This document shows, one piece after another, positions 18,016 through 19,585 of a stretch of 43,694 bases of DNA; within the stretch, counting starts at the first letter, position 1; each line of letters opens with the position of its first letter. Under the pieces are notes generated by a model. The model had not been told where the DNA came from, made no database searches, and saw only the letters and a list, made by a program, of their open reading frames with translations. The translations under genes were made by a program, and so were the position numbers. Source of the stretch: Candidatus Zixiibacteriota bacterium (GTDB lineage: Bacteria > Zixibacteria > MSB-5A5 > GN15 > FEB-12); NCBI GenBank assembly GCA_040752815.1, contig JBFMGC010000024.1, positions 1-43,694 on the forward strand, read 5' to 3'.

Positions 18016-18527
18016 ATGCACATGACACTTAATCCAATTCGAGCCATACTCCCGGCGGTGATTCTGACCGCGTTCGTGGTGTCGGCAGCCTCATCGCCGG
18101 CCATCGCGGAGGGTGAGAGAATCGACTGGCAGGTGATCTCCGGCGGCGGTGACCGGCAGAGTTCGGCCAGCTACATTCTGAACTTCACGGTCGGCCAGAC
18201 CGCGACCGGCACGGTGGCGTCATCGAACTTCAGGGTCAAGCAGGGCTACTGGCAGGATTTTGTCCAGAGCTGCTGCGTGGCGCGGGTCGTGACGCCAATC
18301 AATCGAATGAAGACGAGCCGACTATTGGCGATGTCACCACGATGATCGACGCCAAGTTTATTACCGGCACCTGCGACGGGATCCTGTTCTGCCTTGAGGA
18401 GGCCGACATCAACCAGTCGGGAGGGGCAGCTCCGGTGCGCGACGACGTCACAATTGGCGACATCACGATTCTGATTGATTATCTGTTCATCACGGGCCCG
18501 ACATTAGGCTTGCCGAACTGCCTGTGA
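18016..18527 (+). pseudogene. Secreted dockerin-like repeat protein interrupted by a -1 frameshift
   Basis: The first part (from ATG 18016, with AGGAG upstream) has a signal peptide ending SSPAIA and the segment SASYILNFTVGQTATGTVAS, then SNFRVKQGYWQDF, common in secreted Zixibacteria-like proteins. It should continue into a calcium-binding dockerin-type repeat but reads out of frame after CCVAR. In the frame two bases on, from 18285, the sequence reads GRDANQSNEDEPTIGDVTTM, then IDAKFITGTC, and later EADINQSGG with DDVTIGDITILIDYLFITG to the stop at 18527: two complete repeats. One G missing in the GGG run at 18284-18286 explains the break. The restored product would be about 170 residues. 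It may be a real pseudogene or a homopolymer sequencing error. Dockerin-like repeats bind Ca2+ and dock to partners; here the role is unknown. Confidence 0.75.
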
Positions 18528-18539
18528 CGTGCTGAAAGC

Positions 18540-18864
18540 GGCAGGGATGGAGCCCTGCCGATCAGCTCCGTGGGGCAGAACCCGCGTCGCTTCGACTGAG
18601 CGGTTCTGTCATCACGATCCCTAGCGTGCCCGGCAGAATCACCGATCGCACGCTATCGCACGCGATCCTGGGATTCTGCCCTACTCCCTCCGGAGTCTTG
18701 TAGGTCGAAACCAGTCCCGGCTTCGGGGGCGGTTTCGACACCTGGAACCGTAGGGTGGGCTTGCTTCAAGCCCGCCGCGCCGCGCCGGACACGGTATCCG
18801 TCTCGCAAGTAAGAACAATGTCGGGTTTCGCGCTCCATGGGATAACGCGCGGAACCCGACCTAC
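18540..18864. repeat. Cluster of six REP-like hairpins
   Basis: 18540-18559: GGCAGGG with CCCTGCC. 18570-18610: GTGG, then GGCAGAACC pairing with GGTTCTGTC. 18632-18684: GGCAGAATC with GATTCTGCC, then CTAC; the loop holds an inner GATCGC/GCGATC stem. 18700-18739: GTAG, then GTCGAAACC with GGTTTCGAC. 18750-18776: GTAG, then GGTGGGCTTG with CAAGCCCGCC. 18820-18864: 14-bp stem starting GTCGGGTTTCGCGC, then CTAC. Both orientations occur. The arms reuse the classes seen at 14.5 and 16.1 kb. Confidence 0.8.
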
Positions 18865-19112
18865 AAGACCGCCACCGCGGCTCAGGTGCGTGGCGGACCT
18901 CCCCATCCACCGCGAGGCCGTATTCGGCGTCAGGTCTCCAACCGACCGTGGCCCGGGAGGCGAATCGGACTCGGAGCAGGCCTTGCTGCAGCAGATCCAC
19001 CTGCCAGGCAACTCCGGGGGGCTACACAGTAACAAAACGAGCTTTGCCGGCAGGTTATCCACCGATTTTTCCGGGGCGGCACCGAAAACAGCCGGTTCTG
19101 GGCACTTATTCC

Positions 19113-19141
19113 TTGACAGAAACCCACGGGAGGCGTACTTT
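19113..19141 (+). promoter_or_regulatory. Promoter-like pair upstream of the possible RNA gene
   Basis: A perfect TTGACA at 19113-19118, a 17-base spacer, and TACTTT at 19136-19141 (three of six). No open frame that I trust starts downstream, and the next + strand signal is the terminator at 19552. Confidence 0.4.
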
Positions 19142-19207
19142 GGCATTAGTCGGAGACTGTAGATCCCGCTCTCCCGGGACGACAGGGTCCGGCAGGACGA
19201 TAAAAAA

Positions 19208-19328
19208 GGTAAACCGCTGAAGGAGTACTCTGGAAGATTGTTAAAGCTCCACCATCTTCGATTTGGCTCTTGGTTAATCCACCCACCTATCTATTAATCT
19301 TGGGTCAAGGTACTCCTTGCGGTTTACC
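19208..19328. repeat. Long inverted repeat closing a three-way fold
   Basis: GGTAAACCGC-TG-AAGGAGTAC (19208-19228) pairs with GTACTCCTTGCGGTTTACC (19310-19328): 19 bp with one 2-base bulge. Inside are GAAGAT/ATCTTC (19233-19238 with 19254-19259) and GGTTAAT/ATTAATC (19272-19278 with 19293-19299). The 121-base unit could also be a miniature transposon, but I see no target-site duplication. Confidence 0.65.
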
Positions 19329-19551
19329 TCGTCTGTTGTTTCGTCCGTAAAGCGATGCTGGCTGACGCGTTTCGGTACGCGATACGGAGTGAATTGGCTC
19401 CGACAGGACCGGACAGACCCCGCCTGCGGCGGGCCGTGCACATGTGTCTGCCGCGAATGGACACCGGGTATGCCGGGCGGACGTAAGAGTCTGCAGCGCA
19501 ACGAGATTTGAGTGGACGTCCGATGGCTGGGGTATTCGGCACCACCATTTA

Positions 19552-19585
19552 AGATGGCCCTGCTGCTGTGGGGCCGTCTTTTTTT
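19552..19585 (+). terminator. Intrinsic terminator
   Basis: AGATGGCCC (19552-19560) pairs with GGGCCGTCT (19571-19579) through a 10-base loop and runs into seven T. The T run is on the + strand only, so it ends rightward transcription and not the leftward CBS gene. Confidence 0.75.

Follow-up and report, generated by a model that had tools for sequence, protein, structure and literature searches.

A putative decoy RNA family of Zixibacteria that shares both ends with giant secreted-protein genes

Bacterial RNAs that derive from mRNAs and serve as sponges or decoys are known as a kind. Two other described classes also resemble the locus reported here, namely leader-peptide attenuators together with translation-controlled leaders, and the structured bacterial RNAs collected in Rfam. 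The locus lies at positions 19113–19585 of a 43,694-nt stretch of DNA from a Candidatus Zixiibacteriota bacterium (the window). Like the Rfam families it appears to specify a structured bacterial RNA, but neither it nor its relatives match any of them: with Rfam release 15 (4227 models), neither the window nor 14 related loci gave a hit above the gathering threshold, and the window element found no match at a loose threshold either. A search of the Zixibacteria literature on small RNA or type IX secretion returned no relevant paper.

The region 19113–19585 encodes no credible protein, in agreement with a preliminary description that had seen about 440 bases without a plausible one. On the + strand, the −35 box TTGACA (19113–19118) is followed, after the 17-base spacer given in that description, by a −10-like TACTTT (19136–19141), and the + strand terminator claimed there was found at 19551–19585 as an intrinsic terminator with a 13-bp stem and a T7 run. 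The promoter is absent from the list of a simple sigma-70 scan because, judged against E. coli promoters, its −10 is weak, and the terminator by itself is within chance (1 found vs 1.1 expected); both are convincing because they are conserved in relatives (see below). A CBS-domain gene lies 3' of the element on the other strand, also as described. Identical copies, named as a sign of a recent mobile insertion, were not seen: the element is single-copy, with no second copy in its own 3.19-Mb genome. The segment directly 5' of the element (18530–19000) is a nest of short dispersed REP-like repeats, several with inverted symmetry, which are matched at about 50 other places in the genome; 5' of this nest, 18016–18527 encodes a secreted protein whose C-terminal repeat is dockerin-like, apparently split into two ORFs by a frameshift.

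The middle of the element had been described as a 19-bp long-range stem closing two inner hairpins. The stem is real, and its closure of two hairpins (19230–19308) was reproduced by folding, but its length had been understated: 21 pairs form between 19207–19217 plus 19220–19229 and the 3' arm at 19309–19329, the 5' arm (19207–19229) having a 2-nt bulge at 19218–19219. The 129-nt stem piece has a folding energy of −48.1 kcal/mol compared with −27.5 ± 3.5 for shuffled sequences (z −5.9; 0/200 shuffles as stable), and the entire 473 nt has a folding z of −3.8. Homologous stems are common to three genomes only, the window's (G000), G005 and G021; of these the window's is the most stable, and the ACCTATCT in the loop of the second hairpin is identical in all three. 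Covariation within these three sequences amounted to 2 pairs changed on both sides, a level matched by 251 of 500 shuffles.

Plain DNA similarity searches of 60 related genomes yielded nothing beyond short matches within coding sequence, attributable to chance. The covariance search in related genomes proposed in the preliminary description, carried out with a model from the window sequence alone, did yield two distant homologues over the full length, one in G005 (E 5.2e-10) and one in G021 (E 4.5e-7); a weak R2 match in G017 was dismissed since it overlaps a CDS start. A pattern scan of GTDB contigs gave the same two genomes and chance matches in Chitinilyticum and Paenibacillus only, and one of viral sequences gave no match. 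In G005 and G021 the RNA follows thyX (PF02511) on its strand at a distance of 180–270 nt; a search of the window's genome gave no thyX. All three genomes have TTGACA, 17 nt and TAnnnT located 75–135 nt upstream of the stem. The wider family was seen by reading the regions 3' of thyX in other genera. A sequence-only profile of the leader core (57 positions) detected about one copy per genome in the window's family, in roughly 25–30 genera, and weak matches only in the other families of the order; the element is missing from many good genomes. As far as seen, the candidate RNA family appears confined to one Zixibacteria family, from which a set of 36 elements was collected.

These elements share the order TTGAC promoter, AGGUAA, ribosome-binding site, start-like NUG and CGAUUGYUCA. 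TTGAC occurs within 170 nt upstream in 36/36 (control 23%), with a correctly spaced −10 (TAnnnT) in 32/36 (control 6%); a Shine-Dalgarno (SD)-like stretch is present in all 36, and the start position reads NTG (ATG, GTG, TTG or CTG) in 30. In the window, GGACGA (19195–19200), a leader motif that recurs in many relatives, lies 5' of the core. The core starts with AGGTAA (19207–19212), continues with the ribosome-binding-site-like AAGGAG (19220–19225) inside the long stem, and reaches the mini-ORF position CTG GAA GAT TGT TAA (19230–19244; conserved GATTGTTAA), where relatives read NTG nnC GAT TGY TCA. A core profile built without the three stem-bearing members placed its best window match at 19196–19248 (E 0.033), and the window core is eroded, with CTG at the start position and TAA in place of TCA.

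Downstream sequence pairs significantly with AGGUAA and the ribosome-binding site in 8 of the 36 elements, the window included, which suggests that closing of the translation start is recurrent but not universal; a long stem universal to the family was dropped as a candidate on this count. Shared by three genomes only, the long stem is not the core of the RNA family. The structured element of the preliminary description holds, with the qualification that the conserved portions are the leader core and a 3' domain (19516–19564) that had been missed. On comparative evidence, the prediction that 19113–19585 specifies a new RNA, with a promoter and a terminator of its own, is well supported at the sequence level.

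Two forms of the element can be told apart. In class A it forms the 5' leader of genes for giant Ig-repeat proteins, with ORFs of about 2900–3080 aa and a T9SS sorting signal; in the three proteins tested, Ig/PKD repeats accompany a type A sorting domain for T9SS (TIGR04183, PF18962). Class B, to which the window element belongs, has no long ORF; after its core come 150–380 nt, then a conserved 3' motif, then a terminator hairpin. Several class A genes and most class B elements sit between thyX and a Smr gene, a neighbourhood lost in the window, and both forms are present in G033, G026, G011 and G061.

A profile of the class B 3' domain built without the window matched 19516–19551 (E 1.4e-5), clearly the best hit in the 43.7 kb. 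The same motif recurs at the 3' ends of giant ORFs, within the code for ...YRLTAGEFSATKKMVLLK, and a profile of the giant-gene C-terminus had its best window match at 19517–19564 (E 0.075), weak alone but at the expected place. The class B 3' domain is homologous to the last ~35 codons of the giant genes, and class B therefore consists of the leader and the gene end, with about 8.7 kb between them missing. The 3' end is in frame in G026, and the frame is broken in the window and in most other class B elements.

As for giant genes in the window's own genome, no leader of another giant gene matched the leader-core profile, and the only complete giant genes found there have at most partial leader resemblance. 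At one locus (L200; contig C10, about 64925–64700, minus strand) a giant-type frame of 2220 aa is preceded by TTGACA and GGACGAGAAAACAGGTAAC, which is partly like the leader core and below profile detection. At the thyX–Smr locus of relatives (L171, L172, L173, L174, L175 and L178), giant cargo genes have unrelated N-terminal parts and a common C-terminal end and leader, and this combination at one fixed locus suggests module exchange. Other giant secreted genes of several genomes (L199, L201–L204) have an upstream TTGAC, about 16–18 nt and TATATT, then a leader of about 170–220 nt with ACTAC and GAGGTC-like stretches; this pattern is possibly a second leader family.

Since both ends of the element are homologous to giant genes, the window copy might be a scar, i.e. 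the leader, last codons and terminator left behind when a giant T9SS cargo gene was deleted, perhaps transcribed but functionless. Its broken 3' coding frame, its start-like CTG and its TAA for TCA are consistent with this, as are the failure to find thyX in its genome, the changed neighbourhood, and the 3' end of G026, which has kept its frame, as a recent deletion would. The copy in the window may be a relic. For the congeneric pair G003/G031, however, class B is 96% identical in the leader, 90% in the core, 76% in the middle and 90% in the 3' domain, against 53% at thyX fourfold sites and 43% in the upstream flank. Ends conserved at 90–96% over such a background argue that class B is not merely a decaying scar in these two genomes, and a relic-only reading is disfavoured for them. 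The pair G061/G011 adds little contrast, since its 3' domain is 97% identical and its own upstream flank already 89%. Class B elements of different genera have also kept the same short 3' piece, and the stability of the window stem shows no decay. Start-like features are kept slightly less often in class B (7/13 elements) than in class A (17/21; Fisher p 0.10). We regard a functionless scar as a serious rival reading of the window copy, though less likely than not.

A translation-controlled 5' leader, in which the mini-ORF (MxDCS...) is the working part and stand-alone copies make a tiny peptide, would account for the SD-like stretch of every element, for the NTG with its GTG and TTG variants, and for the position of class A leaders upstream of giant ORFs. 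It would call for conserved amino acids with free third positions, and the mini-ORF has the reverse: codon 2 ends in C in about 30/36 elements and codon 3 in T in 36/36, and the residues vary. The tails are unrelated among elements (4–126 aa), and a stop codon replaces Ser in five of them. The constraint after the start thus acts on RNA rather than on a peptide. A same-strand gene directly downstream, as an attenuator has, is found in class A but not in the window or other class B elements, and we regard this explanation as unlikely. Still less probable, and in our view close to dismissal, is that the element is 6S RNA, or another known housekeeping RNA, in a diverged form. It does have its own promoter, a mostly single copy and a long stem, and the 6S model (RF00013) matched neither the window nor any of the order's 80 genomes although controls were positive, so that Zixibacteria may lack 6S RNA or have an unrecognised form. 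The absence of the element from many good genomes, the silence of Rfam even at a loose threshold and the homology to the ends of a protein-coding gene all speak against it.

The reading that we prefer is that class B elements are free-standing genes for a new family of non-coding RNA, which mimics the giant mRNA and works as a decoy; we put its chances at about even. According to this proposal, the locus would combine a giant T9SS Ig-repeat gene's promoter and 5' leader with a remnant of the last ~35 codons of that gene and a terminator, and a single transcript of about 430 nt would run from the TTGACA promoter to the terminator. This RNA would offer the leader of the giant mRNA (AGGUAA, ribosome-binding site and CGAUUGYUCA) together with its 3' end, and might draw off an RNA or protein that controls translation or decay of the giant mRNA. 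In the window, the 21-bp stem is predicted to keep the ribosome-binding site of the leader closed. As class B RNA has both ends in common with the giant mRNAs, an mRNA mimic is the most economical guess. The conserved promoter and terminator, the end homology, the presence of complete giant genes in some of the same genomes and the congeneric conservation agree with it at the sequence level, and on this reading the RNA would probably act as a decoy of the giant mRNA. Against it count the small contrast in G061/G011, the eroded core and changed neighbourhood of the window copy, which no close relative carries, the slightly rarer start-like features of class B, and the at most partial leader resemblance of the complete giant genes in the window's own genome. 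We advance more tentatively the evolutionary claim that a giant secreted-protein gene lost its interior and so gave rise to a conserved non-coding RNA gene, retained across many Zixibacteria genera as a decoy that acts in trans on the full-length mRNA, with which it shares promoter, leader and 3' end.

If true, this would be an RNA family not described before, from a phylum on which there is next to no RNA biology, and an example of a bacterial protein gene that becomes a regulatory RNA by losing its coding middle with both control ends kept. Since the same leader marks genes for T9SS-exported surface proteins of about 3000 aa, it also gives a handle on the control of these costly giant proteins.

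Compared with leader-peptide attenuators and translation-controlled leaders, the elements are alike in having a promoter, a long leader and a ribosome-binding site with a mini-ORF, a site that 8/36 mask. They differ in that the conserved part is RNA sequence, not peptide, and in that a stand-alone form exists without a downstream gene. There is also a likeness to mRNA-derived sponge and decoy RNAs, these being non-coding transcripts with the regulatory regions of a real mRNA which can in principle compete for its regulators. Class B has sequence in common with the regulatory ends of the real mRNA, namely the leader core and the C-terminal coding motif, and, at the sequence level only, its own promoter and terminator. 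Unlike these RNAs, it is a gene apart, at a conserved locus, in which the two ends of a giant mRNA are joined, and its competition for a regulator is putative.
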